Below, piece after piece: positions 22,345-56,120 of a DNA stretch of 64,000 nucleotides. How positions within the stretch are numbered: position 1 is the stretch's first letter; each line of letters opens with the position of its first letter. The stretch is taken from assembly GCF_900110125.1 (NCBI RefSeq), contig NZ_FOCN01000014.1, positions 1 to 64,000 of the forward strand, written 5' to 3'. The notes under the pieces were generated by a model. It was not told the origin of the DNA. It saw only the letters and a list, made by a program, of their open reading frames with translations, and did not search any database. The stretch comes from Cryobacterium luteum (GTDB lineage Bacteria > Actinomycetota > Actinomycetes > Actinomycetales > Microbacteriaceae). A program made the position numbers and the translations under genes.

Positions 22345-22396
22345 GGTTATCTCCACAGGTAAGTCGTCTCGGCGCAGGTTCTTCAGATCAAACGTG

Positions 22397-22421
22397 CGTC
22401 TCTACATCGATGCTAGAGACG
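22397..22421. promoter_or_regulatory. Inverted repeat upstream of DUF2231 gene / downstream of jetC
   Basis: Perfect 8-bp arms CGTCTCTA and TAGAGACG separated by 9 bp, with the internal palindrome CATCGATG. It lies 53-77 bp upstream of the DUF2231 start and about 100 bp past jetC. No T-run on either side, so an operator is more likely than an intrinsic terminator. Confidence 0.45.
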
Positions 22422-22454
22422 GGGGTCTGCCATCGCTATGTAGGACAGCCTGCG

Positions 22455-22499
22455 CTAAGCGGAGGCGGCGTCCCCGCCAGGTGCGGATGTCGCGACCAT
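22455..22499 (-). other. 14-codon micro-ORF at the usual jetD position
   Basis: Twenty bases after the jetC stop an AGGAG precedes an ATG that opens a 14-codon frame (MVATSAPGGDAASA) closed by TAG. The spacing between AGGAG and ATG is short. It might be the relic start of a deleted jetD or chance. Confidence 0.25.
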
Positions 22500-22518
22500 C
22501 TACTCCTGCTAAGTACCG

Positions 22519-25500
22519 CTAAGCCGCGGCTTGCGGCGACGCCAACGGCGTGATGTAGGAGTAGCCGCTGGCGGTGTTCTTGGTGATCGACAGCACGAGC
22601 TGCATGTGTGGCTCGAGCGCGGTGACCTTGTCGAGGGGCGCGCCGACGATGAGCTGAAAGCCGAGCCCCTTCCACGCGGCGACGGCCCGGCCGGCGAACT
22701 CGGCGTCGGATTTCACGAAGCCCTCGTCGAGGAACACTGGGGCGAAGCGCGGCCGGGTGCGGCTTTCATCGCCGAGCTGAAAGCGCAGGGCTGCACCGAC
22801 GACGAACGCCACGAGTTCCTGCGACTCGCCACCGCTCTTGCCGCCGAGCGAGGAGTAGGTGCTGACTTCCACGCCCTCCGGCGTCACCCGCACCGCGGTG
22901 ATCTCCACGTGAGCGCGCACGTCGAGCAGCAGCTCGCGCTGCGCGGTACTGGAGCCGGTCAGGCCGTCGGGTCGACGGATCAGAATCATGAACTGCTGCA
23001 GCCGGGTGAACCGGTCTTCCGTTTCATCGTCGGTGAGCTGTTCCGTCGACCCCGAGGAGAGCGCCTTGAGCTCCTTGCGAAACGCGGTCGCGTCATCGCG
23101 GTGCAGGCGGCGCAGCGAAATTTGCAAGCGGTCGCGGGTCGCACCGAACGGAAGTGTTGCGAGGATTTCATTGATTGGCCGCAGGCGGTCTTCGATCTCC
23201 TCGATCGCCGTGTTGAACGCGCCGGTGAGCGGCACGAGGTCCTGCCCGCTCCACGTTTCCAGATGACGTTTCCATTCCTGACGCCGCTCCGACAAGCCGA
23301 GGGTGCGGATGGCATCGAGGATGTCGGTATAGCTCGTGACCGATTCAAGCGCGACGCCGATGTTCGGGTCGGGCCAGCGGGCCTGGTAGCTCTCGAAGAT
23401 GCCGATCATGGTGGCTCGGTCGCGTGCGGCGAGGCCCCGATCCTGCGCCGATTGGGCGATGAGTCTTTCACGCAGGCGCTTCAGGCCGCCGGGAAAGCCG
23501 GCGAGATCGTTCTGGTCGGTGACGAGTGCGAACTGCTCGCTGAGGTGTGCGGAATGCTCCTCGGACAGGGTCAGAGTCGCACCCCGTTCAATCTGCTCGA
23601 GCCGGTCGGTCACCGTGTCCTGCGCGTCGACAAGGGCGCCCTGCTCGTCACCCAGCGCCGCGCCGGTCTGCTCGGTCAGGTGCTTGAGCTTCTGGGCGGC
23701 GTCGAGTTCCAGCAGGAGCCGGCCCTCTTCGTCACTGAGGGCTCGCAGGATGTCGCTGCCGGCCAGCATCCGCTCTTGTTCGGACTGCTTCGCGAGAATG
23801 CGTGCCGCGGCGGCTGCAACGTCGATTGATGACCAGTCGGTGTCGAGAATGTGCTGGTGAGCGGCTTGACGCCCCCGCAGCTCACCGAGTTGCTCGGCAA
23901 TAGCGGATGCCCGCCCCGCGGCAGCGTCGGCCACCAGCGCCTGCGCACTCAACTCCGCCGCAATGTCGTCGAGTCGGGCGCGGCTGGAAAACCCAATGAT
24001 CGATTTCTGGCCCGCGTTCGCACCGTGCGCGCCGCGGGAACCGTTGCGGGTCTGCCCGCTCGGGGTCACCCGTGCGCCGGACCAACCGGATTCAGCCGGG
24101 CCCCCCAGGTCGGACGGGCCGGGCACACACAGGGCGTCGAGGTTCGATGACCTGAGGCGCGCCTGCACCCAGCTGCTGAACGGCGAGTTTTTCACGTCGA
24201 GCTTGCCCGACACGTAGCGGGAGTCTCCGGCGCGGTGCTGGTGCGGCTGCAGCGCCACGCCCTCGAAGTGGATGCGCAGCGGCAGCTGCAGCGGATCGAT
24301 CGCCGCGCTCAGCTGCGCGAGCCGGGTTTCATCGACGAGCAGCACCCGTACGACCGACGCCAGGGTCACCTCTGCGGCCTGCCGCCACTGCTCCTCGCCG
24401 GCGGCGAGGTCGATCAATTCGGCCAGGAACGGCAGTTCCTCGGGCGGAATTGCCGCGGCCTCGGCGATCATCAGCCGGGCGTTGTGCAGGGCGAACGGCA
24501 CCAGGCTCTCCCGCCCGGTCAGAAACACCCGTTCCTGCTTGAGTGAGCGGATGCCCTCCTCCACCGGGTATAACTCACGTTGCAGCGCCGAGCGAGTCGC
24601 TTCCAGTGCCGTCTCGGCGGCCGTGAACCCGGTAGCAAACAGGTCAGCGCCCTGCTGGGCGGCTGCAAACGCCGCGGCGGAATCGATCGGCGCGGAATCG
24701 ATCGACGCCGCCAGCGAACGCACCCGGGCATCGAAAGCAGTGCGCTCACGAGCCACCTGGTCGTGCTGCTCGCCCAGCTGCACGAGTTCGGCCTGCAGCC
24801 GTTCGAGCACGTCGCCGCCATTATCGCGCTGCTGCTGTTGCAGCTGGGCGACCCGGGTCTTCAGCGCCGTTTCGGTGTCGCGGGCCTTGGCCCTGGCGGT
24901 CTCGTTCTCACGGCGGGCGGCCCGGTTGGTGTCGGCGGCGTTCTCCAGCAGGGTGTGCTCGGCCATCAGCTGCCAGAGCACGAAGGGGGTGTTCCCTGGC
25001 CGGTGCACCCCGAACGTGTCGACCAGGTCGGCCTGGGCGGTCGCGGCCTCGTAGGACTGGTGGAGCTGGGGCAGGCGTTCGAGCACCTGGGCCTTCTGCG
25101 CCTCGGTGACCATGGCGCCGTAGGAACGTTCGAGATCTTCGAAGTGGTCGACCGCCTTGTCGGCGGCGGCGAAGGTCGCGGGCTCTTCGAGCACCATCGA
25201 CTTGTACAGGCCGTCGACCGTTTTGACCTGCTGGCCGGCCTGGATGCGGGCGAGCAGGCGCAGGGCCTTACCGCCCTCGCCGTTCGCGCCGATGCCGAGC
25301 CGGGTGTACAGGGTCTGGGCGAAGGCCGCGTAGGTGTCGAACACGTCGAGGCCGTCGAACCGGGACTTGAGTGCACGTTTATCGAACCGACTCTCGGCGC
25401 AGGAGGCGAGGTCGCGCAGGTCCAGGCTCCCGTCGGTCGTGGCCATTTTCATGGTGACGTCGGCGAATTTGTGGGTGCCGCGCGGCACGAAGTAGGCCCG

Positions 25501-25929
25501 CAGCACGGTGAATCGGCGTTCGTTGTCATCAATAAAGGTGAGAGCGACGGCTCCCCAGGTGGCTTCGTGCGCACCCCGCAGCACCTGGTCGGTCAGTTCA
25601 CCCGTGCCGGCTTCCCGGTTGGTGTCGGTCTTTCCGCGCAGGTAGGTCATCAGGTTGCGCTGGTCGACGCTTCGGGCGCGCCCCGAGCCGGCATCGTTGG
25701 AGGCCCCGTTGAACGGAGTGTCGGAGGGCATCATGAGAGCGAGATAGGCGTCGAGCAGGCTGCTCTTGCCCGTGCCGGACGCACCGGAGACGAGGGTGGC
25801 CTGCCGGGCAAAGTCGATCTCATGGTGGCCGTGAAAACCGCCCCAGTTGACCAACTGCATCGATTCGGCCCGCCACTGGGTGGTGCCCTCGGTAGCGCCG
25901 TCGATGTAGAACAGCGGGGAATCGTTCAT
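22519..25929 (-). CDS. jetC: JetC-like SMC-type ATPase of a Wadjet/MksBEF complex
   Basis: 1136 residues. Walker A GASGTGKS (49-56) in an N-terminal half-domain, long heptad-rich coiled-coil arms (about 265-440 and 680-860) around a central hinge-like region, and at the C-terminus the ABC signature [11 protein letters not shown] and Walker B PVFLDEGF. This is the MukB/MksB-type SMC of the Wadjet family, which recognises and extrudes small circular DNA. It overlaps jetB by 4 bp. No JetD nuclease gene follows. Confidence 0.92.
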
Positions 25930-26636
25930 ACCAGGGGCTCCAAAAGGGTTTCTTCGCGGTTTTCAGCGCTGTTTTCTTCGCGCAGCCAGTCGAGCAGCTC
26001 ACCGAGGCGTTCCACCGACAAGAGCACCTCAATCACCGCCGAGATGCGAAACCGGTCCGGATCACTGGTTTTCAGCAGCACCCGCGCCTTGGCCAGGCTG
26101 TCGACCGCGGCCGCTGCCTTGCGGGCGTCTCCGGAAAGGTCAGTGGCGTACTCGGGGCGAAAGTGCGCGACGTTCTCGACCAGGTTGTCGCGGTCGACCA
26201 GCACGATCTCCTGGCCGTTGGCTCGTTCGCTGCGAAAACGCTGTCGCAGCAGCACGAGCAGAATGGTCTCTTCGCGGGTGTAGGCCACGTCGTGCAACAG
26301 TGTGGGAAACCGTTCGCCGCCCTCAGCGATGGCTTGTCGCTTGAACGCGACCTCGTAGTGCCGGTCGACGTGCAGGTCGAGAAAGACGTCGTTGAGGCGC
26401 GATTTGAGCAGGCTCTGCGACTTGAGCAGGGTCTGCCATTCGGCCGGCTGCAGGGCCGCCGAGATGTAGCGGTGCTTCAGCAGCAGCACGAGGGTGCGGC
26501 GTTGCTCCGCGCTGAGCCCGCCCTCGTCTCCCTCGAACAGGGACAGGCTCGCCGGTTCGCTGTCGATACCGGTGTACTCGACCACATCGCCGTCGGTCAT
26601 GTCGTCAGTCATATTGCCGGTCAGGTCGTCATTCAT
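25926..26636 (-). CDS. jetB: JetB, DUF4194 kleisin-associated subunit
   Basis: 236 residues. DUF4194 (MksE/JetB) features: [20 protein letters not shown], a winged-helix region, [14 protein letters not shown], and the terminal [25 protein letters not shown]. The first 35 residues are acidic and repetitive ([17 protein letters not shown]). It acts as the KITE-like subunit bridging JetA and JetC. Overlaps both jetA (8 bp) and jetC (4 bp): one translationally coupled operon. Confidence 0.9.
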
Positions 26637-28164
26637 GCTCGGAACCCAAATTCTGGGCGGCCAGGGCCGCCATGTCGTCGTTGGTCAGGGTGCGGCGCGG
26701 CAGGTCGAAAACCCGCACCGAGCCATCCGGTCGCACCGTTTCGAAGCTCTCAAGGCCGGGCTGAACGGCGGGCACGCCCAGCTGGGCGGCCAGTTGCAGC
26801 AGGCCGAGAATCTCGACCGGCCGGCGCAGGCTGGCGTCGAGCGCGTTGAACGCGCTGCCAACGGATGCGGCCTCCCCCGCCCCGGAAGCCGCCCCGGATC
26901 CCGCCGCGAACGCCGCCACCAGCGCGTCGCGCAGTTCTTCGAGCAGCGGCCCGCCCTGCTGACGCAGGTCGCCGAGGCTCGGCCCGGCCGGTGCAGCAGA
27001 GGACACATCGACCAGCGCCGGCGGACCCCGGTGAGCGACCGGGTCGTAGAAGCGCTCACGCAGATGCTCGACCTCGAGTCGGCCGGGCATGAGTTCGGCG
27101 GTGACCGTGGAGCGCGGGCCGGCGGTCAGCATCCAGGTGGCCAGTTCGCGGTTGATATCGCGCAGCACGTGTTCGAGCTCGCGGTCTTTCACCACGTCAT
27201 GGTTGACGATGTGCTCGCGCAGGGTGGTGGTGAGCCCCTTGCGCTGGGTCAGCACGTCGTCGATGCCCTTGCGCAGCAGGGTCACGGTACTCATGAAGCT
27301 GCGGCGCTCGTTCAGGCTCAGTTCGAGGGCGAACGGGTGCAGCAAAATCGTCTCGAGGTCGGCTTTGAGCCCCTGTATGAGGGTGTCGTTGCGCAGCAGC
27401 GTGAACGCGCCCTCGAAGGCGCGACCCTCAGCGGTCGACGACATGAGGGCATCCGTTTTGGCGAGGTAGTCGTCGAGGACCTCGCTGATCGGGCGTTGCT
27501 CACCGCGAAAGTCGTTGATGATTTGTCGGTGCATGGCCGCGACCGACTCTTCGACGCGTTTGAAGTCGCTCGGCAGCTGCGCGATGAGGTCGATGAGGTT
27601 GGCGTAGCCCTCGTGCATCTGTTCGTTCGAGGCGGCCGCAATCAAGCCTCCGTCGGCGAGGCGGTCACGTTCGCTGGTCAGTTCATCGATCTGCTGGTCG
27701 AGGCGGCGCACCCGCTCCTCGCGATCGGGGTTGGCCTCGGTGGCGCGGTGCCGCACCGTGTCGACGATCGTGGCGAGGCGGGATTCGCTGATCAGCGCCC
27801 GATCGCCGGCGAGACCGTCGACCAGCAGCAGGGCTTCGAGGGCGTGGCTGGTGAGTGAGTAGTGCTCGTCACTTCCCTCATCGCCGTCGCGGAGCTCGCG
27901 GTACAGCCAGAGGTCGTTCATCCACTGCACGCAGAGGGCCCGGCCGGTTTTCTCGGGGGCGTCGATGCCGGTGCTGCGGAGGTCGGCGAGGTAGGCATCC
28001 ACCTGGGTGTGCAGCAACTCGCAGGGAACGCTGCGGCGATCACGGCTGAACGAACTCTTGAACACCGCGAGCACGAACGGCGCCCATTTGCGGTCGAGCA
28101 GGCGCAGGGTGGGTTTGTCGAAGGCTTCGCGCACCCGCGCCAATTCGCCCGCAATATCACTCAA
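26629..28164 (-). CDS. jetA: JetA, DUF3375 kleisin subunit
   Basis: 511 residues, first gene of the operon. DUF3375 signature at the start: [35 protein letters not shown] and [17 protein letters not shown] coiled coil runs near 175-200 ([21 protein letters not shown]). It is the MksF-like kleisin that closes the JetC ring. It is divergent from an LLM oxidoreductase with 176 bp between starts. Confidence 0.9.
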
Positions 28165-44604: not shown

Positions 44605-46547
44605 TGTTTCGCCTGCGCCTGGCCCCGCTGCGCGCGGCAGTCATGCTCGCCGTCGGCTTCGTGCTGCTGCGGGTCGTCTACCGGGTGGTGTTCGGCGGCG
44701 CCGGAGCCGGCCTCGGGCCGGTGCTGCTCGACCTTCCCCGGCTGCAGCTCGACGCACCATTCAGCCACATCACCCTGCTGGGCCCGATCACCCTGCTCGG
44801 TCTTGGCAACGCGGCGCTCAGCGCCCTGCCGATCTCCGCCGTCATCGTGTTCTTCGGGCTGCTCAACGCCATCATCAACGTGCAGGCTCTGTTCGCCCGC
44901 GGTGCCGGCCGCGGGCCGCTGCGGGCGATTTCCCGTTCGCTCGTGATCGCCTGGGCCACCTTTCCGGCCCTCCTGGAGTCGGTGCGGCGCGTGCGGGTGG
45001 CCCGCGCCCTGCGCGGTGAGCGCTCGATCGCGTCCCTGCTCGTGCCGGTTTTTGAGCAGACCATCGAGCGCGCGCTCGCGTTGGCAGCGTCGATGGAGAC
45101 CCGAGGATTCGCGGCCGCCCGCGTCGTTCCCGGCGTGTGCGAGGCACCGGTAGTCTTAGCCGATGCCGGTTTAAATTTCAGAGGCGACTGGCATCTCGAC
45201 GATCTCAACGTTACGCTGGCGCCGGGTTCCCTAACGGTGATCGTCGGCGCGACCGGATCGGGAAAGACCAGCCTGCTGCACAGCATGAGCGGCCTGTTCC
45301 AGCACTTCTATGACGGCGTGCAGCACGGCAGCATTGACATTGCCGGGGCCGACCGGGCCGCGACTCCCCCGCGCGACACCGCCGGTTGTGTCGGGCTTGT
45401 CGCGCAGAACGTGCGCCTCGGCTTTGCCGCCGAAACAGTGCACGACGAGATCGGTTTCGCTTTGGCCGTGCGCAATGTGGCACCATCGATCGTGCACGCC
45501 CGGGTGCTCGAGCTTGCCGCGCGACTGCAGCTTGAACATCTGGTCGACCGCCCGATCGAGCAGCTCTCGGCCGGTGAAGCCAGCCTCGTCGCGATCGCCG
45601 CCGCCCTCGTCAACCATCCCATCCTGCTGCTCGTCGACGAGCCCCTCGCCGACCTCGACACGAATGCCCGTGAGCGGGTCTGCACCGTGCTCGGCCAACT
45701 GGCCCACGAGGCCGGCGTCTGCGTCGTCATCGCCGAACACAATACGAGCGAGTTCGCCCTGGTAGCGGATGCCTGGCTGCAGATTCGAGGCAGCCGCCTG
45801 CACGAGGTCCCCCTCGAACAGGTCCTCACGACGGATGATACCGAAGATACCGCACCGAAATCGAACGCGAGCGCGTCTGCGGTGCCGCTTGCGAGCATCC
45901 GTCGGCTGAGCGTGCGGCACAAAGACCACCTGGCCGTCGACGCCGTGTCCTTCAACGTGCCGGCCGGCGAGCTCATCGCGCTGCGCGGCAGCAACGGCGC
46001 CGGCAAAAGCAGCCTGCTGCGGGCGATCGCGCTGCCGACGGCGGCTGACACCGTGATCGTCGCCGGGCACGATGTCCATTCTTTGAAGCGGCGAACCCGC
46101 CGCCAGGCGGTGGCTCTCGTGCCCGAGAACTTTGATGACCTGCTGTTTGCCATCACCGTGGCCGAGGAGTGTCGCCGCGCCGATAGCGGGCTGACCGGCG
46201 CTGACACGGCACAGACCTTTGCGCGTCTGCTCGGCTTCGACACTGCAGCGGATGCCACGCCCCTGTTCGAGCGCCACCCGCGCGACCTTTCGGCCGGCGA
46301 ACGGCTCTGCCTCGTGATGGCCATTCAGCTCGCGGCCCGGCCGGCCCTGTTGCTCGTCGACGAACCCACCCGCGGCCTCGACCACCGGGCGCGCTCCCTC
46401 GTAAGCGCTGCGCTTTTCACGGCGGCCGGTCACAGTGCCGCGGTCATCTTCGCCACCCACGACGACGACTTTGCGCAGAGCCTGGCCTCCCGCACCCTGC
46501 GCATGCACGCCGGGCGCCTCACCGCTCCCATCGGAGTGCTCTCGTGA
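44604..46547 (+). CDS. Fused ECF transporter: EcfT membrane part plus two EcfA ATPases
   Basis: 647 residues from GTG. Residues 1 to about 190 are the T component: hydrophobic helices and the coupling segment SRSLVIAWATFPALLESVRRVRVARALRGERS. Two ATPase domains follow: first Walker A GATGSGKTS near 215, QNVRLGF, LSAGEASL, LLLVDEPLADLD; second GSNGAGKSS near 468, LSAGERLCL, LLLVDEPTRGLD and ATHDDD. The signatures read LSAGE instead of LSGGQ, common in EcfA. A three-in-one energising module; S-component gene overlaps by 4 bp. Confidence 0.88.
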   Translation: MFRLRLAPLRAAVMLAVGFVLLRVVYRVVFGGAGAGLGPVLLDLPRLQLDAPFSHITLLGPITLLGLGNAALSALPISAVIVFFGLLNAIINVQALFARGAGRGPLRAISRSLVIAWATFPALLESVRRVRVARALRGERSIASLLVPVFEQTIERALALAASMETRGFAAARVVPGVCEAPVVLADAGLNFRGDWHLDDLNVTLAPGSLTVIVGATGSGKTSLLHSMSGLFQHFYDGVQHGSIDIAGADRAATPPRDTAGCVGLVAQNVRLGFAAETVHDEIGFALAVRNVAPSIVHARVLELAARLQLEHLVDRPIEQLSAGEASLVAIAAALVNHPILLLVDEPLADLDTNARERVCTVLGQLAHEAGVCVVIAEHNTSEFALVADAWLQIRGSRLHEVPLEQVLTTDDTEDTAPKSNASASAVPLASIRRLSVRHKDHLAVDAVSFNVPAGELIALRGSNGAGKSSLLRAIALPTAADTVIVAGHDVHSLKRRTRRQAVALVPENFDDLLFAITVAEECRRADSGLTGADTAQTFARLLGFDTAADATPLFERHPRDLSAGERLCLVMAIQLAARPALLLVDEPTRGLDHRARSLVSAALFTAAGHSAAVIFATHDDDFAQSLASRTLRMHAGRLTAPIGVLS

Positions 46548-47341
46548 GCGTTGTCGTATCGCCGCGCCGCAGCATCCGCTTTACGGCCTGGACTCTCACG
46601 GGCGGCAGCGTTCTCGCCGCGGCCGCATTCGCCTGGCCGTTCTTCGTCGGAGCGGTTCCGGCCGACGCGCAGGTCGCGGTTCCGATCGTGGCCTTTGCGC
46701 TGATTCCGGCGCTCATCGTGGGCCTCGTCCTCACCCTCGACCGGGAGATGTACACGGCCAAGACCGTGGCGCTGCTCGGTGTGCTCTCGGCCGTCGGCGC
46801 CGCGGTGCGCATCGCGGGTGCCGGTGTCGGCGGAGTCGAGGCGGTCTTTGTACTGCTGATTCTGGCCGGTCGGGTCTACGGCGCCCGGTTCGGTTTTCTG
46901 CTCGGACTGCTCACCATCGCGGTATCCTCGCTGCTCTGGGGCGGCTTCGGCCCGTGGACTCCGTTCCAGATGTTCGCCTGCGGCTGGGTCGGAGCCGGCG
47001 CTGGGCTCCTTCCCCGCTGGTCAATCACCACGGTGCAGCGGTGGCGCATCCGCTGTGAAATCGCCCTTCTGGCCGGCTACGGCGTGGTCGCCTCGTACCT
47101 GTTCGGGCTCGCGATGAACCTCTGGTTCTGGCCGTTCGCCGTCGGCAGCGGCAGCGGCATCTCCTACGAGGCCGCCGCCGACCCCGGTCAGAACCTGGCC
47201 TCGTTCGCGCTTTACTCGCTCGTCACCTCAACCCTCACCTGGGACACCGTGCGCGCCATCACCACGGTCGTCGGCATCGTCCTAATCGGCCCGGCCGTGC
47301 TCGCCGCCCTCCGCCGAGCCCGCCTGGGACCGCGCCGTTGA
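46544..47341 (+). CDS. ECF transporter S component (candidate cobalamin, CbrT-like)
   Basis: 265 residues with about seven helices: substrate-binding subunit of a group I ECF importer. LGVLSAVGAAVRIAGAGVGGVEAVFVLLILAGRVYGARFGFLLGLL and a WGGFGPWTPFQMFACGWVGAGAGLLP segment are typical of S components of the queuosine/cobalamin-like group. Neighbouring B12-dependent metH (convergent) and the putative cobalamin-binding lipoprotein suggest B12; specificity cannot be read directly. Confidence 0.8.
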   Translation: MSVVVSPRRSIRFTAWTLTGGSVLAAAAFAWPFFVGAVPADAQVAVPIVAFALIPALIVGLVLTLDREMYTAKTVALLGVLSAVGAAVRIAGAGVGGVEAVFVLLILAGRVYGARFGFLLGLLTIAVSSLLWGGFGPWTPFQMFACGWVGAGAGLLPRWSITTVQRWRIRCEIALLAGYGVVASYLFGLAMNLWFWPFAVGSGSGISYEAAADPGQNLASFALYSLVTSTLTWDTVRAITTVVGIVLIGPAVLAALRRARLGPRR

Positions 47342-47378
47342 CTCGGCATCCGTTTCACGCCGCGCGCGAGCTGCGCCG

Positions 47379-47406
47379 GTGCGCGCGAGGCAGAACTCGC
47401 GCGCAC
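47379..47406. terminator. Hairpin 1 between convergent ecfS and metH
   Basis: Perfect inverted repeat with 11-bp arms GTGCGCGCGAG / CTCGCGCGCAC and a 6-base loop (GCAGAA). No T-run. Likely part of a bidirectional stop for the convergent genes. Confidence 0.55.
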
Positions 47407-47427
47407 TGGCGGAAGTCCAGCTGCACG

Positions 47428-47470
47428 CGATGCGCTGGAGTTCCGGCCAAACCGGAACTCCAGCGCATCG
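47428..47470. terminator. Hairpin 2 between convergent ecfS and metH
   Basis: Perfect inverted repeat with 19-bp arms beginning CGATGCGCTGGAG and ending CCAGCGCATCG, loop CCAAA. A third, inverted, one-mismatch copy of the core GGAACTCCAGC lies just upstream at 47410-47421. Long, symmetrical and without T-run; it sits 26 bp past the metH stop. Confidence 0.7.
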
Positions 47471-47495
47471 GCGCAACTCCCCCGGGGCCTGCCCG

Positions 47496-50400
47496 CTACA
47501 CCGAGAAGTACTTCGCTTCCGGGTGGTGGAACACGAACGCGTCGGTCGACTGCTCGGGGTGCAGCTGCAGCTCTTCCGACAGCACCACTCCCATGCGCTC
47601 CGGCTTCAGCAGCTCGACCACCTTGCGGCGATCCTCCATCTCGGGGCAGGCCGGATAGCCGAGCGAGAACCGCGCACCGCGATACTCGAGCTTGAACATG
47701 CCGGCGATATCGCTCGGGTCTTCGCCGCCCACACCGAATTCCAAGCGGATGCGCGAGTGCCAGTACTCGGCCAGCGCCTCGGTGAGCTGCATGGTCAGTC
47801 CGTTGAGTTCCATATAGTCGCGGTACTGGTTCGCGGCGAACATTTTGGCCGTCACTGAGTCCACGTTCGCGCCGGCGGTGACCAGCTGGAGGGCGACGAC
47901 ATCCGTTTGCCCGGTGTCCCTGGAACGCACAAAGTCGGCCAGGCACAGGTGCTTGTCACGCCGTTGTCGGGGGAAGTTGAACCGCAGGCGGTCGGTACCG
48001 AGCTCGCCGCCACTACCGCCGTCGGGGGCGAGCAACCCGGCCTGACCGACCAGACCGGCGGGGTCGTCGCCGTGGTGCAGCACGACCATGTCGTCGCCCT
48101 CGGCGACCACGGGAAAGTAGCCGTAGGCCACGGAGGCGTCGAGCATGCCCTCGCCCAGGATGCGGTCGAGCCAGTAGCGCAGGCGAGGCCGGCCGACAGT
48201 GTCGACCAGTTCCTGATAGCTGGCGCCGTCTTCGGCCCGGCTGGGCTTGAGCCCCCACTGCCCCATGAACGTGGCGCGTTCGTCGAGAAACGCCGAGAAA
48301 TCGGCCAGCGCCACACCCTTGACGATGCGGGTGCCCCAGAACGGCGGTACCGGAATCGGGTTATTGCTCGCGACCTCGGAACGCCCGGGCATCTCTTCGG
48401 GTTCGGTGAGGGTGAGCAGGCTCTTCTTATGGATGCGCTTCTTCAGCGGCGGCAGCCCGACCGCACGGGGGTCGGCGCCACGGGCGATGGCCACGAGCGG
48501 TTCCATCAGGGCGAGACCCTCGAAGGCGTCCCGGGCGTAGCGCACCTGCCCGGCGAAGACGCTGTCCAGGTCGTCCTCGACATAGGAACGGGTGAGGGCG
48601 GCGCCACCGAGCAGGATGGGCCATTTGCCGGCGAGTCCGCGGGATTCGAGTTCGAGCAGGTTCTCCTTCATCACGACGGTGGATTTCACGAGCAGCCCGC
48701 TCATGCCGATGACGTCGGCGTTGTTCTCTTCGGCGACGCGAATGAACTCAGCGATCGGCTGTTTGATGCCGATGTTGATCACGTCGTAGCCGTTGTTGGT
48801 GAGGATGATGTCGACGAGGTTCTTGCCGATGTCGTGCACGTCGCCGCGCACGGTGCCGAGCACGATCGTGCCCTTGCCGGCCGCTTCGGATTTTTCCATG
48901 TGCGGCTCCAGCAGGGCGACGGCGGCCTTCATGACCTCCGCGGATTGCAGCACGAACGGCAGCTGCATCTCGCCGCTGCCGAAGCGGGCACCGACGACCT
49001 GCATGCCAACGAGCAGGTGCACGTTGACGATGTCGAGGGCGCTGAGCCCGCTGGCCCGGGCGAGGTCGAGGTCGGCTTCCAGGCCCTTGGCCTCGCCGTC
49101 GATGATGCGTCGCTCCAGCCGCTCACCCACCGGCAGGGCGGCCAGTTCGGCCGCGCGCTCATCTTTCAGGGCGGCCGAGTCGACGCCGGCGAACAGATCG
49201 AGCAGCGCCACGAGCGGGTCGTAGGTGAGGGTACCTTCGGCGTCGTATTCGCGGCGGTCCCAGACCAGGTCGAGCGCCACCTTGCGGCGGTCGTCTGGCA
49301 CAGAGGCGAGCGGCACGATCTTGGCGGAGTTGACGATAGCGGAGTCGAGTCCCGCCTCGGTGGCTTCGTGCAGAAACACCGAGTTGAGCACCGAACGGGC
49401 GGCGGGATTGAGCCCGAACGACACGTTCGAGACGCCGAGGGTGGTGTGGATACCGGGGTACTTCGCCTTGATCTGCCGGATCGCCTCGATGGTCTCGATG
49501 CCGTCGCGACGGGTTTCCTCCTGCCCGGTCGCGATGGGAAAGGTCAGCGCGTCGACGATGATGTCCTCGACCCGCATGCCCCACACGTTGACGAGAGTGT
49601 CGACCAGCCGGGTGGCGATGCGCACCTTGTGTTCGGCGGTGCGGGCCTGTCCCTCTTCGTCGATGGTCAGCGCGATCACGGCGGCGCCGTGCTCCTTCAC
49701 GAGCGGCATGATGCGGCCAAACCGCGACGTGGGGCCCTCACCGTCTTCAAAGTTCACCGAGTTGACGACCGGGCGCCCGCCGATGAGTTCCATGCCGGCC
49801 TGCAGCACGGCCGGCTCCGTGGAGTCGACGACGAGCGGGAGGGTCGAGGCGCTCGCGAGCCTGGAGACGACCTGTTTCATATCGGCGACACCGTCACGGC
49901 CGACGTAGTCGATGCAGACGTCGAGCAGGTGGGCGCCGTCGCGCACCTGGCTGCGGGCGATGTCGACGCAGTCGTCCCAGTTCTCAGCGAGCATGGCATC
50001 GCGAAAGGCGCGCGAGCCGTTGGCGTTGGTGCGCTCGCCGATGGCCAGAAAGGCACTGTCCTGGTCAAAGCTGACGTGCTGATAGAGGCTGGCGACGCCG
50101 GCATCCGCTTCGAGAACGCGGGGTTTCACGGTGACGCCCCGCAACCGTTCGACCACGGCGGTCATGTGCGCGGGAGTCGTGCCGCAGCATCCGCCGACCA
50201 GGCCCAACCCGAACTCCTTCACGAACTGTTCGTGCGCCGCAGCCAGCTGGTCGGGGGTCAGCGGATAGCTCGCGCCGGTCTTGGTCAGCTGCGGCAGGCC
50301 GGCGTTGGGCATACAGATCACAGGCACGCGCGAGAACTTACTGAGGTGGCGCAGGTGCTCGCTCATCTCGGTCGGTCCGGTGGCGCAGTTCAGGCCGATC

Positions 50401-51125
50401 GCGTCGATTCCGAGAGGCTCGAGCGCGGTCAGCGCGGCCCCGATCTCGCTGCCCATCAGCATGGTTCCGGTGGTCTCCACCGTCACCTCGACGAAAATGG
50501 GCAAGCGGATGCCGGTCTCGGCAATAGCCTGCTTGCATCCGTTCACCGCGCTCTTGGTCTGCAGCAGGTCCTGCGAGGTCTCGATGAGAAACGCGTCGGC
50601 GCCGCCGCGGATGAGGCCGAGCGCCTGCTCGGCGAAGGTGGCCTTGAGGTTGGCGTAGCTGGTGTGGCCGAGGCTCGGCAGTTTCGTGCCGGGGCCCATC
50701 GAGCCGAGCACCCAGCGCATCCGGCCGTCGCGGGCTTCGAACTTTTCGGCACTGGTGCGGGCGATCTCGGCGCCGAGCCAGGCGAGTTCCTCGATGCGGT
50801 CTTCGATGCCGTAGTCCGACAAGTTTGACCAGTTCGCTCCGAAGGTGTTGGTTTCGATGGCGTCGATGCCCGTCTCGAGGTAGACATCGTGGATGGCCGC
50901 GATGATGTCGGGGCGGCTCACGTTGAGGATCTCGTTGCAGCCCTCGAGCTGCTGGTAGTCGTCGAGAGAAGGATTGTGCTCCTGCAGCATGGTGCCCATG
51001 GCGCCGTCGGCGATCACCACGGAGTTCGTCACGGCATGCAGCAGGGCCTGGGATCGAGCCGGGAGAGCCGCTTCGACGGGTGATTCGGCGGCAGTTGTTC
51101 GCTCGGGCTCTTGGTCGGTGCTCAT
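47496..51125 (-). CDS. metH: Cobalamin-dependent methionine synthase
   Basis: 1209 residues, full length with all four modules. Homocysteine domain: VIADGAMGTMLQ, ETNTFGAN and zinc motif GGCCGTTP. Methyltetrahydrofolate (pterin) domain: FLAIGERTNANGSRAFR, DVCIDYVGRDG. Cobalamin domain: RGDVHDIGKNLVDIIL (DxHxxG His ligand) and GMSGLLVKST. C-terminal AdoMet activation domain: FSLGYPACPEMEDR. Converts homocysteine, from MetY/MalY nearby, to methionine with B12. Its 5' side is a strongly structured intergenic region. Confidence 0.97.
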   Translation of the reverse strand: MSTDQEPERTTAAESPVEAALPARSQALLHAVTNSVVIADGAMGTMLQEHNPSLDDYQQLEGCNEILNVSRPDIIAAIHDVYLETGIDAIETNTFGANWSNLSDYGIEDRIEELAWLGAEIARTSAEKFEARDGRMRWVLGSMGPGTKLPSLGHTSYANLKATFAEQALGLIRGGADAFLIETSQDLLQTKSAVNGCKQAIAETGIRLPIFVEVTVETTGTMLMGSEIGAALTALEPLGIDAIGLNCATGPTEMSEHLRHLSKFSRVPVICMPNAGLPQLTKTGASYPLTPDQLAAAHEQFVKEFGLGLVGGCCGTTPAHMTAVVERLRGVTVKPRVLEADAGVASLYQHVSFDQDSAFLAIGERTNANGSRAFRDAMLAENWDDCVDIARSQVRDGAHLLDVCIDYVGRDGVADMKQVVSRLASASTLPLVVDSTEPAVLQAGMELIGGRPVVNSVNFEDGEGPTSRFGRIMPLVKEHGAAVIALTIDEEGQARTAEHKVRIATRLVDTLVNVWGMRVEDIIVDALTFPIATGQEETRRDGIETIEAIRQIKAKYPGIHTTLGVSNVSFGLNPAARSVLNSVFLHEATEAGLDSAIVNSAKIVPLASVPDDRRKVALDLVWDRREYDAEGTLTYDPLVALLDLFAGVDSAALKDERAAELAALPVGERLERRIIDGEAKGLEADLDLARASGLSALDIVNVHLLVGMQVVGARFGSGEMQLPFVLQSAEVMKAAVALLEPHMEKSEAAGKGTIVLGTVRGDVHDIGKNLVDIILTNNGYDVINIGIKQPIAEFIRVAEENNADVIGMSGLLVKSTVVMKENLLELESRGLAGKWPILLGGAALTRSYVEDDLDSVFAGQVRYARDAFEGLALMEPLVAIARGADPRAVGLPPLKKRIHKKSLLTLTEPEEMPGRSEVASNNPIPVPPFWGTRIVKGVALADFSAFLDERATFMGQWGLKPSRAEDGASYQELVDTVGRPRLRYWLDRILGEGMLDASVAYGYFPVVAEGDDMVVLHHGDDPAGLVGQAGLLAPDGGSGGELGTDRLRFNFPRQRRDKHLCLADFVRSRDTGQTDVVALQLVTAGANVDSVTAKMFAANQYRDYMELNGLTMQLTEALAEYWHSRIRLEFGVGGEDPSDIAGMFKLEYRGARFSLGYPACPEMEDRRKVVELLKPERMGVVLSEELQLHPEQSTDAFVFHHPEAKYFSV

Positions 51126-51226
51126 TGGCTCAGCTTAACGGCGGGTGCAAACGGTCGGTCGCGCCGAAGTAACGTTTCTTAGCCTTCAGCGGATGCGCGC
51201 GGCTTTCGGGCCGGAGTACCGCCGCA

Positions 51227-51350
51227 ACTCGGCGCCCCGTGGGGCGCCGAGTGTCGTGCAGGCCGCGTGGCACGCGGCGACTGCCCGATGAGTGACGAAG
51301 GACCCCGTGCCAGGCACAGAGATCAGAGCCCCCGCATTATTCGTCACTCA
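51227..51350. other. Structured intergenic element upstream of metH
   Basis: Three successive perfect inverted repeats in the 364-bp gap between metH (- strand) and the ImmA-like gene (+ strand): 51227-51252, 12-bp arms ACTCGGCGCCCC/GGGGCGCCGAGT with a 2-bp centre; 51262-51278, 8-bp arms GCCGCGTG/CACGCGGC; 51289-51350, 11-bp arms TGAGTGACGAA/TTCGTCACTCA enclosing GTGCC-A-GGCAC. Read on the - strand it would form three stems about 100 bases ahead of metH, as in an attenuator or riboswitch. No B12-box consensus was recognised. Confidence 0.55.
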
Positions 51351-51388
51351 CGAGCGTCGCCGCAGCCGCTTCCCCCCGGAAGCCACGT

Positions 51389-51400
51389 TAGACATGTCTA
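51389..51400. promoter_or_regulatory. Palindromic operator of the ImmA/MAB_1171c/EspR-like operon
   Basis: Perfect palindrome TAGACATGTCTA, overlapped by GTTAG (51387) and CTAAC (51404) as an outer imperfect repeat. It is 90 bp before the first gene of the operon, which ends with a DNA-binding protein that could bind here. TAGGAT at 51460-51465 may be a -10 box. Confidence 0.5.
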
Positions 51401-51489
51401 TCCTAACCCTATTTGTGAGGCCGGTACAGACATCCGCTCCGGCCGTACTCGCCGAGCGGTAGGATGAACGGGGCAAATAGGGGGTATCG

Positions 51490-51984
51490 ATGGACTACGC
51501 GTCACGCCAGAAACAAGCACACACCATGGTGGCCGCGCTAAACCTGCCCCGACCCCTCACGGCCGACTTGCTGCACCAGCACATGGAAACGATGCGTGGC
51601 AAGAAGATCGTGGTGCAGACCGCGACCCCGCGCATGCTTGAGGCTGGGCTGTGTGGGCTCTGGATCGCCGTAGCCGGGGAAAGCTTTGAGCGCATCCACC
51701 ATGCACCGACCAGCTCGGTGGTGCACCGCCAGCAATTCATCAATCACGAATTCGGCCACATGATCCTCGACCAGGAACAAGAATTGATCTCTGCGGAACG
51801 GGTGGCTCTGCTGGCCCCGCTGATTCCTCTGGATGCCATCGCCTACGCACTGTCTCGCAGCCAGTTCACCGACGAGCAGGAGGCTCTCGCCGAGGCCATC
51901 GGCGATCAACTGGCCCTCATGATGCTGCACGACGGGCCAGAAGCGGCCCACGGCACTCAAACCGGATTCGGACGCGTGCTCTAG
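51490..51984 (+). CDS. ImmA/IrrE-like putative metallopeptidase
   Basis: 164 residues. The core is QFINHEFGHMILDQEQE with the HExxH zinc motif at H86-H90, preceded by a helix-rich part and followed by ARRLLAPL-like helices; an acidic residue that could be the third ligand lies nearby. ImmA/IrrE proteins cleave HTH repressors or sense DNA damage/phage. Short, without a fused HTH. Its stop shares a base with the GTG of the membrane protein gene, so both are translated together. Confidence 0.82.
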   Translation: MDYASRQKQAHTMVAALNLPRPLTADLLHQHMETMRGKKIVVQTATPRMLEAGLCGLWIAVAGESFERIHHAPTSSVVHRQQFINHEFGHMILDQEQELISAERVALLAPLIPLDAIAYALSRSQFTDEQEALAEAIGDQLALMMLHDGPEAAHGTQTGFGRVL

Positions 51985-52991
51985 TGCAAGCACTAATACT
52001 GATAACGGCGTCTGCAGTCCTGTGGATAGCAGCAGCGTTTTGTGTCCCCTCTGTTTTAAAAGGACGTCGGCGTCCACTATTTTGGTTCCTGGCCACCTTC
52101 GCTCTAACCATGAGCCTCCAACCCAAGCCCGTCTACGACGCTATGGATGCCTTACTGGGCGGTGTCAACGCGACGTACTTCATTTTTCATGCGCTGGCTA
52201 TCGCCACGGTGGGCTTGGCGGATGTGATGGTTCAACAAGCGGTTACAGCGTCTGAAATCGCACGCAGGCGGAAAATAATCACGGCCGTGGTTGCGGGTCT
52301 GATCGTCTTCGTTCAGGCCCTCCTCTTCTTCGGCAGCGACTGGCATCTGACGAACAACATTTCCCAGTCGTTTATTGCCGAATGGTCCTACACCGCCTAC
52401 GCGGCGACAACGTGGGTCACCATCGCATTCTTTTCCATCTCGGTGCTGTCCGCCAGCGTGGCCGACCTGCGGGCACAGACCAGAAGCGCCACTCGCGTGG
52501 CACTGATAATTTTGAGCCTCGGTTGCCTATGCATTCTCGCTTATACAATCAACAGCCTCATCGGTGCGACCCAGACGACGCTCGACCCGACATTCGTTCT
52601 GCCAGATTGGCGTGAATCCGTGCAGAAATTCGTGTTGCTCCTTGCACCACTCAGCATGGGCGTCGGCCTCGGATTGACCGCCGCCGTCGATGCGCTGGCC
52701 GCCGCCAAGAAGAATTTTCGCGACCGGGTGTTGCTCTGGCAGATCACTCCGCTGTGGCAGCGCCTCCTCGCCGACAATCCCGAGCTCAGCATCGAACGCA
52801 AGCTCTCCCCCCGACAACTGCTCACCGTGCGCAATCCCGGAGTGCACCTCTATCGGCGGCACGTCGAAATTCGCGACAGCCTGCTGTTGCGCTCCGGGCA
52901 GACCGTGACCGCCGACGAACTGGTCATAATCGATCGGGCCGAAGCGCGCACCCAGGCCCGAACCACTACTCTGGCGGGAGTCGCCAAATGA
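51984..52991 (+). CDS. MAB_1171c-like multi-helix membrane protein
   Basis: 335 residues from GTG. About seven hydrophobic helices fill the first 245 residues (LILITASAVLWIAAAFCV start), then a soluble C-terminal part (RDRVLLWQITPLWQRLLADNPELSIE and LYRRHVEIRDSLLLR). This matches the actinobacterial 'MAB_1171c family putative transporter' layout, repeatedly found beside ImmA/IrrE and XRE genes. True function unknown; a receptor or anti-regulator is as likely as a transporter. Overlaps the next gene by ATGA. Confidence 0.75.
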   Translation: MQALILITASAVLWIAAAFCVPSVLKGRRRPLFWFLATFALTMSLQPKPVYDAMDALLGGVNATYFIFHALAIATVGLADVMVQQAVTASEIARRRKIITAVVAGLIVFVQALLFFGSDWHLTNNISQSFIAEWSYTAYAATTWVTIAFFSISVLSASVADLRAQTRSATRVALIILSLGCLCILAYTINSLIGATQTTLDPTFVLPDWRESVQKFVLLLAPLSMGVGLGLTAAVDALAAAKKNFRDRVLLWQITPLWQRLLADNPELSIERKLSPRQLLTVRNPGVHLYRRHVEIRDSLLLRSGQTVTADELVIIDRAEARTQARTTTLAGVAK

Positions 52992-53446
52992 GCGCCGCGC
53001 GAGGCGCCGGCGAGGTGAGCCCGCAGCTGGAATTGGCACGCAAGCTCAATCTGCTGCTCGACGTCGTCGTGGCCGAGGGCAACACGCCATACACCTATCG
53101 CCAGATCGAAGCGGGCTTGAACGAACGCGGCCTGACCCTCTCGCGAGCACGCTGGGCCTACATGATCACCGGCGAAGGCCCCCTCGTCACCGATCAGGCA
53201 CTGCTCACCGGCATCGCCGAGTTCTTCCGCATCCCCCCGGAATACATGCTCGGCGACGGCGACCTGCCGGAACGCGTCGACGCTCAACTTGAGTTCGTGA
53301 AGAGCCTGCGCGTTCAACGTGTGGTGAGCTTCGCGGCGAGGATGCTCGGGGATGTTTCCCCAGAAACCCTTCGGTCCATCACCGAGCTGCTCGAAACCGA
53401 GACCATGGAACCCGCCGATGGGTCGACCTCCGGCCCGCCCGCCTAA
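52988..53446 (+). CDS. EspR-like XRE-family DNA-binding protein
   Basis: 152 residues from the overlapping ATG. N-terminal helix-turn-helix (YTYRQIEAGLNERGLTLSRARWAYMITGEG) and FFRIPPEYMLGDG, then a helical dimerisation half (DAQLEFVKSLRVQRVVSFAARMLGDVSPETLRSITELLE). The layout matches EspR/EspR-like regulators of mycobacteria. Presumed transcription factor of this operon and possible target of the ImmA-like peptidase. Confidence 0.8.
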   Translation: MSAARGAGEVSPQLELARKLNLLLDVVVAEGNTPYTYRQIEAGLNERGLTLSRARWAYMITGEGPLVTDQALLTGIAEFFRIPPEYMLGDGDLPERVDAQLEFVKSLRVQRVVSFAARMLGDVSPETLRSITELLETETMEPADGSTSGPPA

Positions 53447-53499
53447 CCGAACCGGATCGGGGAGCCGGCGCGCCGCGGTCACTGCCGACGAGCACCTGA

Positions 53500-53826
53500 C
53501 TAACGGGCGGTACCGCCGGCGATCGTGTACGACCACAGCTCGCTGCTCACACCGACGGGACGCGCGGCCGGTTCGCCTTCCTTCGGCGTCTCACTGCGGT
53601 GGCCGTGAGCGAACGACGGCGAACTCACCCAGGCTTGGAACGACTCCTCGTCGGCCCAGCGGGTCACGACGAGCCAGGTCAGGCGGTCATCGGTGGGCTT
53701 GAGTAGTTCGAAGCCCTCGAAACCGGGGCGGTCGTCGACGGCGCCGGCGCGCGCGGCGAATCGCTGGGCAAGCTCGTCGCCGCCGTCGCTCGGCACGGTG
53801 ATGGCGTTGATTTTGATGATCGTCAT
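53500..53826 (-). CDS. ABM-domain monooxygenase (heme-degrading/antibiotic biosynthesis type)
   Basis: 108 residues from MTIIKINAITV; the longer frame has no better start. AARAGAVDDRPGFEGFELLKPTDDRLTWLVVTRWADEESFQAWVSSPSFAHGH is the dimeric ferredoxin-like ABM fold with conserved NxxxV, W and H positions. Members include HmoA/MhuD heme oxygenases and quinol monooxygenases; no closer call is safe. Confidence 0.9.
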   Translation of the reverse strand: MTIIKINAITVPSDGGDELAQRFAARAGAVDDRPGFEGFELLKPTDDRLTWLVVTRWADEESFQAWVSSPSFAHGHRSETPKEGEPAARPVGVSSELWSYTIAGGTAR

Positions 53827-53969
53827 GGGGCTGCTTCCTGTTGACACGCTCGAAGGTAACTCCACCATGCTGCCACTTTCCGCTGCGCGGACGCGCCATT
53901 CCCCGTCACGACAGCTCTAACCGGCCGGGTTCCCTATGCTGCAGGGCCAATGCTTATGCTGGAGACACT

Positions 53970-54632
53970 ATGCGACTTCTCCTGATCCGCCATGGCCAGA
54001 CTCCCGGCAACGTTCTCGGGCGGCTCGACACCGAGCATCCCGGTCCGGGGTTGACCGATCTCGGTCTGCGTCAGGCCGCCGCCATTCCCGATGCCCTGCG
54101 CTCCGACCCCATCGACGCCATTTTTGTGTCGACGCTGCTGCGCACTCACCTGACGGCGCATCCGCTCGCCGCCGATCGCGGACTCGACGTGCAGGTCGCG
54201 ACCGGGCTGCACGAGATCGAAGCGGGGTCACTCGAAGGGCTGCGCGATCGGGCATCCGTTCGCACCTATCTGCAAACCGCGGTGGCCTGGGGTTCCGGTG
54301 ATCTCGACCAGCGGATGCCCGGCGCTCAAGACGGTCATGACTTCTTTCGACGGTTCGACGCCGACATCGCTGTGGCAGCCGCGACCGCGGACGTCGCTGC
54401 TGTGTTCAGCCACGGCGCGGCCATCCGAGTGTGGACCGCAGCCCGCGCGCAGAACGTGCCGGCGACCTTTGCCGGCGAGAACGAACTCGACAACACCGGC
54501 GTGGTCGAGCTGACCGGCTCACCCGAGGAGGGCTGGACCCTGCTGTCCTGGGCCGGTCTGCCGGTGGGCGGGATGGCCCTGGCCGACCTGACGGCGGCCG
54601 ACCCGCTCGGCGAGCCACTCGCCGAGCCGTGA
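53970..54632 (+). CDS. Histidine phosphatase family protein
   Basis: 220 residues from ATG preceded by GGAG. LLIRHGQTPGN gives the catalytic RHG; STLLRT, EIEAGSLEGL and FSHGAAIR (second His) complete the phosphoglycerate-mutase-like active site. Acts on phosphomonoesters; the substrate is unknown. Confidence 0.93.
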   Translation: MRLLLIRHGQTPGNVLGRLDTEHPGPGLTDLGLRQAAAIPDALRSDPIDAIFVSTLLRTHLTAHPLAADRGLDVQVATGLHEIEAGSLEGLRDRASVRTYLQTAVAWGSGDLDQRMPGAQDGHDFFRRFDADIAVAAATADVAAVFSHGAAIRVWTAARAQNVPATFAGENELDNTGVVELTGSPEEGWTLLSWAGLPVGGMALADLTAADPLGEPLAEP

Positions 54633-54694
54633 TTTTCAGCCCGATTTAAACGATTCAACGGCTCAAAACTCACGGCTCGACGCCGACCGGCGCG

Positions 54695-55045
54695 CTACTC
54701 CAGCTTGGCGCGGGGCACCCTGGGCCGCACGAGCGCATGGCTGTCGCGCAGCAACTGCTCGACGAGCTCGGCGGGTACCTGGCCGCCGAGCTCGACCGTG
54801 ATCCAGTGCTTCTTGTTCAGGTGATAGCCCGGCGTGATCCAAAGCGGGAACTCCTCGCGCAGGGCGCGACTCTCCTCCGGATCGCACTTGAGCGACACCG
54901 TCAGCGGCTCGCTCGCCAGCGCCGCGAGGGCAAAAATCTTGCCGTTTCCGCTGGTCTTGAACACGCTCGTCTCCTCACCGAACGGAAACGTTTCGATCGC
55001 TTGCGGCAGGCTCAGGCAGAGGTCGACGAGCGCGTCGGGGGTCAT
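54695..55045 (-). CDS. MmcQ/YjbR (DUF419) DNA-binding-like protein
   Basis: 116 residues. FPFGEETSVFKTSGNGKIFAL, VSLKCDPEESRALREEFP, ITPGYHLNKKHWITV are the YjbR/CyaY-like double-wing signature. Commonly called MmcQ/YjbR; function unproven. Ten bp upstream lies the stop of the luciferase-like gene, so they probably form an operon. Confidence 0.92.
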   Translation of the reverse strand: MTPDALVDLCLSLPQAIETFPFGEETSVFKTSGNGKIFALAALASEPLTVSLKCDPEESRALREEFPLWITPGYHLNKKHWITVELGGQVPAELVEQLLRDSHALVRPRVPRAKLE

Positions 55046-55054
55046 GTTGCCAGC

Positions 55055-56053
55055 TCAGGCAGCGACGAGGCTCATAGCATCGGCGGTCAGTTCCACCGAG
55101 CGCAGGCGGCCAGCGATGAACGGCGACTGGTGGGCGAGAATGAGTTCGTCGGCTCCGGTTCCCGCGGCGAATTCCTCGAGATAGGCGCGCACCTCTTCGG
55201 CCGTGCCGACCGCGGAATAACGCATCATATTGGCGATATTGCGGCCCTCCGGCGTGGTCAGAAAGACGTCGATCTGGTCGTCGCTGTACTCTGGGGTCGC
55301 CGGGCCGCGGGAGAGCATGCCGCGTACCCGGGTGCGGCGGGTGGTCTCGAACTGGTGCACGGCATCCGCTTTATCATCGGCCGCGATCACGTTGGCGGCC
55401 ACGATGAGGTGCGGGGCGGCGAGCTGCTCCGACGGAGTGAAGTCGCGGCGGTAGAGCGCGATGGCGTCGTGCAGCGCATCGGGTGCGAAGTGCGACGCGA
55501 AGGCGTAGGGCAGTCCGAGGGCGGCGGCGAGTCCGGCACCGAACAGCGACGACCCCAGAATGTACAGCGGAACATTGGTGCCGGCGCCGGGAACGGCCTG
55601 CACGCCGGGCACGATCGATTGGCCGCGCAGGTAGGCCTGCAGCTCCATGACGTCCTGCGGAAACTGGTCGGAAGCGCGCGGGTCGCGGCGCATCGCTCGA
55701 GCGGTGTTCTGGTCGCTGCCGGGTGCCCGCCCGAGGCCCAGATCGATGCGGTCGGGGTAGAGCTCGGCGAGGGTGCCGTACTGCTCGGCGATCACGAGGG
55801 GAGAGTGGTTGGGCAGCATGACGCCCCCGGATCCCAGTCGGATCGTGGCGGTCTGCCCGGCGACGTGGCCGATCAGAATGCTCGTTGCCGACGATCCGAT
55901 GGTCGGCATGTTGTGGTGCTCGGCATACCAGACGCGCGCGTACCCGTGTTTTTCGGCCTTTTGCGCGAGCGCGACACTCGCCGCGAAGCTCTCCCGAGCG
56001 GTCTGCCCGGGGGCAATCGGAGCGAGGTCAAGGATGGAGAGCGGAATAGTCAT
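55055..56053 (-). CDS. LLM-class flavin-dependent oxidoreductase (luciferase-like, group 1)
   Basis: 332 residues. [45 protein letters not shown] is the MsnO8-type N-terminus; [26 protein letters not shown] and [20 protein letters not shown] follow. Single-domain TIM-barrel oxidoreductase using FMN or F420; more distant from the two LLM copies at 28 and 33 kb. Substrate unknown. Confidence 0.93.
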
Positions 56054-56120
56054 ACTGGGGGCAACACCGTCACGCCGAATTCGTTACCGCAAGCCGCCAA
56101 CGAACGAGAAATTGCCCGGC

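Follow-up and report, generated by a model that had tools for sequence, protein, structure and literature searches.

What does a Wadjet-type motor do when the gene for its nuclease is missing from the operon? The question is raised by the jetABC locus of Cryobacterium luteum, three genes within a stretch of 64,000 nucleotides (contig NZ_FOCN01000014.1, positions 1 to 64,000 of the forward strand; hereafter the window). In the current view, Wadjet extrudes DNA and JetD cuts it once a small circle has been fully extruded (PMC10586767, in part); here no jetD follows jetC. On balance, we consider it probable that the locus encodes a nuclease-free MksBEF-type SMC (structural maintenance of chromosomes) complex, which arose from a type I Wadjet when jetD was lost and acts as a near-core DNA organiser beside Smc.

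The jetABC genes are intact and no jetD follows them

All three genes are co-directional on the (-) strand. The first, jetA (26629..28164, 511 aa from a TTG start), encodes an MksF-like kleisin, which matched DUF3375 (PF11855) in Pfam at 1.6e-98 and PADLOC with 593 bits; jetB (25926..26636, 236 aa) encodes an MksE-like KITE subunit, which matched DUF4194 (PF13835) at 2.4e-34 and PADLOC with 357 bits; and jetC (22519..25929, 1136 aa) encodes an MksB-like SMC ATPase, with Pfam matches to SbcC_Walker_B/AAA_29 and 1317 bits in PADLOC. The PDB sequence matches of the window proteins were the JetA, JetB and JetC chains of Wadjet, besides three chance-level JetA hits, and JetA matched the PDB JetA chains with E-values of about 7e-15 to 9e-15. 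The overlaps are 8 bp between jetA and jetB and 4 bp between jetB and jetC, and JetC has a complete set of ATPase motifs (Walker A GASGTGKS, signature LGGKSGGE, Walker B VFLDEGF). The initial annotation, which had described three overlapping genes for JetA, JetB and the SMC protein JetC and had read the intact JetC motifs as an argument against simple decay, was borne out on both counts, the second also by the smc-like constraint reported below.

The gap behind jetC (22346..22518 on the same strand), the position of jetD in cognate systems, holds no jetD sequence or relic. A JetD profile hidden Markov model (HMM) run over all six frames, cut from stop to stop into pieces no shorter than 25 residues and with the start codon optional, gave no match there, which rules out a frameshift that hides jetD after jetC. 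An earlier description of 174 bp without a jetD frame, followed by a DUF2231 gene, holds for the missing frame and for the neighbour; the spacing to the DUF2231 open reading frame (ORF) measures 162 or 173 bp, depending on which DUF2231 start is chosen. That jetA, jetB and jetC are present, intact and overlapping, with no jetD after them, is thus confirmed. Compared with type I Wadjet, the window has JetA, JetB and the JetC ATPase, but no JetD encoded alongside; compared with MksBEF, it has co-directional MksF, MksE and MksB without MksG, in a genome that also carries Smc.

The genome itself (3.83 Mb in 73 contigs, 99.93% complete) contains exactly one JetC match and one DUF3375 match. The genome-wide search for DUF3322 and DUF2220 proteins that had been proposed with the first description was run, with Corynebacterium glutamicum as a positive control that was detected in both the JetD_C and DUF3322 searches; the profile search of the C. 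luteum genome found no DUF3322 match and a single JetD_C match, without a jet copy beside it. This match (contig C47, 23971-24252) lies in a 104-codon open stretch and covers profile positions 78-176 of 179. It corresponds to the 3' part of a jetD from the divergent lineage described below (L001:1501-1815; G000:C47 from 23971), and we assign it to another Wadjet lineage because it shares 77% identity over 84 residues with the JetD from a divergent system (L167) and 31-45% with eight other JetDs. Within the 20 kb searched around it with Jet queries of both lineages, no other jet gene was convincing; a lone jetA match of 41 residues (E 0.009) was taken as noise, and directly before the fragment lies an ORF that matches an HNH endonuclease. 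To judge from these identities, the fragment is probably what is left of a second, different Wadjet that this genome once had.

The same arrangement is nearly universal in Cryobacterium

An orthologue of the window JetC, 63-93% identical, was found in 53 of 57 Cryobacterium genomes, and jetA and jetB adjoin jetC at all 53 of these loci (tblastn), which we call orphan loci. With starts chosen by script, jetA and jetB overlap by 8 bp in 36/53 and jetB and jetC by 4 bp in 47/53. A whole-genome JetD_C search combined with the six-frame JetD HMM on the flanks found jetD beside none of the 53. The flanks of every locus were covered, at least 3.8 kb downstream in 52 of them, and no six-frame match exceeded 12.9 bits; the orphan locus of G042 has about 200 bp downstream only, and the sole JetD that the whole-genome search found in G042 adjoins its divergent copy. 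Since the arrangement is seen again in 53 of the 57 genomes, jetABC without jetD is not a chance occurrence. It also recurs in genomes assembled into about one contig (e.g. G031, G038 and G044), so that an assembly or sequencing artefact concealing jetD, which the 73-contig draft state of the window's genome might suggest, has a probability close to nil; a sequencing error in the gap, named at the outset as something that could overturn the observation, was checked in the same way, the six-frame search being empty and the result repeated in 53 genomes.

Walker A, signature and Walker B motifs are present in all 50 unsplit copies of jetC (Walker B VFLDEGF in 49 and VFLDEAF in one), including that of G025 (L123), for which a TGA was reported in the match that does not lie internally. 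An smc gene was found in the window's genome and in 56 of the 57 Cryobacterium genomes; co-occurrence with Smc is a usual, not universal, trait of nuclease-free MksBEF. The sole genome without an smc match, G045, carries orphan jetABC, and this is probably a gap in the draft.

jetD has been lost or gained repeatedly among relatives

Among 299 Microbacteriaceae genomes, JetC matches were found in 68 and JetD_C matches in 33, and flanks were retrieved for 40 loci of the family. This is the synteny comparison that had also been proposed at the start. In g53, the genus nearest to Cryobacterium in the JetC tree, JetC is 70-71% identical to that of the window and a cognate jetD begins at the jetC stop codon in both genomes (G177 and G230); the gene order in G177 is that of the window, and the contig of G230 stops before jetB. 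By the six-frame JetD HMM on their flanks, the loci of g64 (65-66% identity, 5/5 genomes of the genus), g18 (58-61%, four loci), g51 (50%, five loci) and g32 (49-50%, five loci) have no jetD beside jetC. Away from these loci, a weak match to JetD_C, at 23.9 bits, occurs in G184 (g64) and a JetD paired with another JetC in G217 (g32). In a second JetC clade, 35-40% identical to the window, the picture is mixed: 3 of 15 retrieved loci carry jetD.

The JetC tree (90 rows, built quickly under LG+G4, from which L126-L128 were dropped and in which four rows were flagged as very long branches) requires at least seven changes of jetD state, and about 9-10 losses by manual count if only losses are allowed. 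Support was 100 for Cryobacterium plus g53 and 69 for Cryobacterium as a single group. In the JetD tree (18 rows), the JetDs of g53, g3, the second copy of G023 and a Rhodococcus plasmid fall together, as do the three from the second clade. Because the JetD tree groups in the same way as the JetC tree, the phylogenies favour an ancestral jetD that was lost repeatedly over one that was gained repeatedly, with regain as a possible alternative.

Two congeners of g49 are separated by a JetC tree distance of about 0.085, one without jetD (L164, G173) and one with it (L165, G227). The ends of their jetC genes match over 255 bp at 94.5% DNA identity, so jetD was lost or gained recently in this pair.

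A possible nuclease supplied from elsewhere

The initial annotation had also allowed for a nuclease in trans, that is, for JetABC partnering with an enzyme encoded at another locus, either a JetD or something unrelated. JetD_C matches occur in 23 of the 57 Cryobacterium genomes, and full-length JetD (150 or more profile positions matched, with the open frame 399 codons or longer) in 19, at 21 loci; four genomes have fragments only (G000, which is that of the window, G019, G022 and G036). Seventeen of the 53 orphan-bearing genomes thus possess a full-length JetD elsewhere that might serve the orphan complex. However, each of the 21 full-length JetDs has a divergent JetC match of its own no more than about 1 kb away, and none lies beside the orphan; 36 of the 53 orphan-bearing genomes have no full-length JetD (32 no match, four fragments), which argues against JetD in trans; in the window's own genome the JetD family is represented only by the remnant of the other lineage. 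These divergent jetD-bearing loci are patchy (19/57), and C. luteum retains one as a remnant only, a pattern that we count in favour of the nuclease-free MksBEF-type complex.

An unrelated enzyme was sought among the neighbouring genes. For 92 of the 93 loci (all but L130, whose contig lacks jetA), the ORFs of 100 aa or longer lying up to 6 kb away were grouped into clusters, and no replacement effector emerged: the largest flanking cluster occurs in 24/53 Cryobacterium loci and none joins the jetD-less genera at a shared position. The first gene-like ORF after jetC, picked approximately by third-codon-position G+C content at 22 jetD-less loci, had a Pfam match in 16 cases and none in six; the matches were to enzymes, transporters, regulators, DnaJ, RsfS and one PemK/MazF-like toxin, with no DNA nuclease among them. 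The toxin gene (L144:4962-5528; G175, g51) is the first gene-like ORF after jetC at this one jetD-less locus only.

In apparent favour of a partner in trans, a short segment near the JetB N-terminus (window 26514-26543, (-) strand) is nearly invariant even where JetD is missing, reading SLFEGDEG in 52 of 53 Cryobacterium JetBs and SLFEGDAG in one. An IFDR motif that contacts JetD lies at the JetB N-terminus (PMC10586767, in part), and a jetD-bearing Cupriavidus plasmid JetB, related to PA14 JetB, begins MSIFD. Judged by eye, MSIFD stands about 40 residues before the apparent first helix and the Cryobacterium LFEGD about 10. We did not use the segment as proof of JetD docking. Taking these lines together, we give a nuclease in trans only a slim chance.

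Constraint and descent of the orphan genes

Median pairwise ratios of non-synonymous to synonymous divergence (dN/dS) in the orphan set were 0.217 for jetC, 0.204 for jetB and 0.188 for jetA (49 of 53 copies, omitting the broken L126-L128 and also, needlessly, L123 for the TGA in its match), compared with 0.222 for smc in 21 Cryobacterium genomes; the values, obtained by NG86, are rough, as dS is near 0.7-1.0. The orphan jetABC genes are therefore under purifying selection similar to that on smc. Pairwise distances of orphan JetC also follow those of Smc across 21 genomes (Pearson 0.93, Spearman 0.63, Mantel 0/2000), which supports vertical descent. The divergent set behaved alike, with dN/dS values of 0.116, 0.197, 0.197 and 0.192 for jetA, jetB, jetC and jetD (16-21 sequences) and JetC distances that agree with Smc in seven genomes (Pearson 0.94, Spearman 0.72, 42/2000), so that there is no sharp contrast between the two sets and neither dN/dS nor Smc congruence can, alone, separate housekeeping from defence. 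A contrast in dN/dS between the sets was accordingly dropped as proof of function, the values being about equal. Orphan and divergent JetC agree more weakly with each other (Spearman 0.31, 12 genomes, 56/2000).

These data bear directly on whether the locus is a defence system that has lost its effector and is decaying. Three of the 53 jetC copies are split by frame changes (L126 in G041, L127 in G024 and L128 in G008), jetB lies in two frames in two jetD-less relatives (L152 and L159), and the g49 pair shows a recent loss or gain of jetD. The split copies come from single-contig assemblies and both decay and sequencing error are possible there; the G008 assembly is 83% complete and its smc match also has stops. 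Against decay, purifying selection with dN/dS of about 0.2 extends across the genus, as for smc, and 50 of the 53 frames are unbroken, each with all three motifs. Given its presence in 53 of 57 genomes, the smc-like selection and a divergence that tracks smc, orphan jetABC is not in simple decay, and we see a very slim chance at most that an effector-less system is being lost here. The lost-effector option of the first description is probably right as history, jetD seeming to be ancestral and lost, but not in the sense of a decaying relic.

A probable nuclease-free SMC complex acting beside Smc

With JetD gone and the remaining genes constrained, a motor that organises DNA without cutting it is the simplest reading. 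As is thought for Wadjet and MukBEF, JetC dimers together with JetA and JetB would hydrolyse ATP and extrude DNA loops; without JetD, extrusion would end in compaction or organisation of the DNA, in chromosome folding or segregation, instead of cutting. Loop extrusion, the chromosome as target and the cellular role are what we infer here from the observed gene content, motifs, conservation, constraint, congruence and tree. The option of a condensin-like MksBEF without MksG, already raised in the initial annotation, is thereby favoured at the level of sequence comparison, by near-universality, smc-like constraint, congruence with smc and the failure to find an effector.

The closest functional parallel is MksBEF of Pseudomonas aeruginosa, which works together with Smc in laying out and segregating the chromosome (PMC7485682, in part). 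Like the window locus it combines a kleisin, a KITE protein and an SMC protein without MksG and co-occurs with Smc; it belongs to another phylum, the likeness is drawn from gene content, and the chromosomal function shown there would apply here by analogy. The type I Wadjet systems JetABCD/MksBEFG (C. glutamicum, Mycobacterium smegmatis EptABCD, PA14 and Escherichia coli GF4-3) have the same JetA, JetB and JetC families in the same order, but the window lacks an adjoining JetD and its genome yielded no full-length JetD. JetABCD of g53 is the nearest relative by JetC that carries jetD. Several members of the Wadjet group, MukBEF included, are described as lacking MksG/JetD, as the window does, and their flanking proteins were checked with AlphaFold2 (PMC7617805, in part). 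Nuclease-free MksBEF and JetD-less Wadjet-group operons are thus already in print and the kind is known. In the open-licence literature we found no paper on Cryobacterium with Wadjet, nor, in main texts, any report of near-fixation across Cryobacterium beside patchy Wadjet or of repeated loss in Microbacteriaceae.

Several observations weigh against the view that the orphan genes encode a near-core chromosome organiser. Four of the 57 genomes (G043, G052, G054 and G055) have no JetC orthologue, G052 and G055 having a divergent JetC only, and three of the 53 jetC copies are split, as described above. Gene neighbourhoods vary between Cryobacterium subclades. The N-terminal segment of JetB is kept with and without JetD, with similar forms in both kinds of relatives, and the divergent jetD-bearing set is under about equal constraint and its JetC also tracks Smc in seven genomes. 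Finally, MksBEFG of the actinobacterium C. glutamicum is reported to be inactive on the chromosome and to act on plasmids (PMC7083940, in part); that complex has its nuclease, bound via MksF (PMC10123090, in part).

Defence loci are usually patchy, unlike the orphan locus, which almost every Cryobacterium genome carries and whose divergence follows that of smc. This speaks against a form of immunity without a nuclease, in which JetABC would recognise small circular DNA by extruding it completely and would then silence, compact or mis-segregate it without cutting. The Wadjet motor is intact and constrained, as such immunity would need, Smc5/6 silences some viral genomes (PMC7617805, in part) and the Mks complex of C. 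glutamicum targets plasmids, not the chromosome (PMC7083940, in part); we nevertheless regard this explanation as unlikely.

Gene neighbourhood

Beyond the DUF2231 ORF lie DoxX-like, sodium:sulfate-symporter-family and succinate-dehydrogenase-like genes, and on the other flank, divergent from jetA, a luciferase-like monooxygenase gene and an ABC transporter set, all by Pfam match. The neighbours with a match are metabolic, transport or membrane genes, a point that we count for the DNA-organiser reading, and two of the ten scanned ORFs had no match. ARAGORN found no tRNA in the window, and promoter and terminator scans gave nothing exceeding chance. The DUF2231 protein was rejected as a component of the system because its gene stands behind jetC in just 4/53 loci, and of nine window neighbours tested the DoxX-like gene alone was common (24/53). 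A protein of about 190 aa without a Pfam match is encoded on the same strand as jetABC, within 2.4 kb, in 24/53 loci (12 upstream and 12 downstream; e.g. L095, L097 and L105). It has a homologue in 56 of the 57 genomes, on another contig in that of the window, and we treated it as incidental and not as a partner.

JetD-less loci in Actinomycetota and on a plasmid

In 396 Actinomycetota genomes, 18 DUF3375 loci in 16 genomes scored above the cut-off, one further match below it being dropped. JetD_C lies within about 5 kb in eight of the 18 and in none of the other ten, the window among them; in the flanks of all ten, JetC was present and JetD was not found. Six of these JetD-less jetA loci belong to one family (f6), so that the sample is uneven. 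DUF3375 scores ran from 442 to 504 bits at jetD-bearing loci (one at 367) and from 295 to 393 bits at jetD-less ones, a split that hints at JetA sequence groups tracking the presence of JetD.

The genome G670 has a JetD fragment in a 244-codon frame with no adjoining jetABC match (L225; G670:C11:185000-194500), and its jetABC sits on another contig without JetD. The Mycolicibacterium fortuitum plasmid CP089609.1 carries jetABC at 45325-56591 (L227), with a JetC 44% identical to that of the window, DUF3375 annotated as two overlapping genes and no jetD annotated in the stretch.

Implications

As 10 of the 18 Actinomycetota DUF3375 loci have no JetD_C nearby, caution is needed in scoring JetABC as defence, and jetABC alone should not count as plasmid defence. 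For the Microbacteriaceae as a whole, we tentatively raise a broader proposal, more doubtful than not, that the Wadjet motor was repeatedly freed of its nuclease, in several independent conversions, and became fixed as part of the core gene set, where it would serve as a second loop extruder on the chromosome or as a non-cutting silencer of circular foreign DNA. On the relation of MukBEF and MksBEF to Wadjet, one proposal derives the chromosomal complexes from defence systems, with MksBEF arising by loss of JetD (PMC10586767, in part). With JetC about 70% identical between relatives that carry jetD and relatives that lack it, this step from defence to chromosome seems to have been caught within one family.

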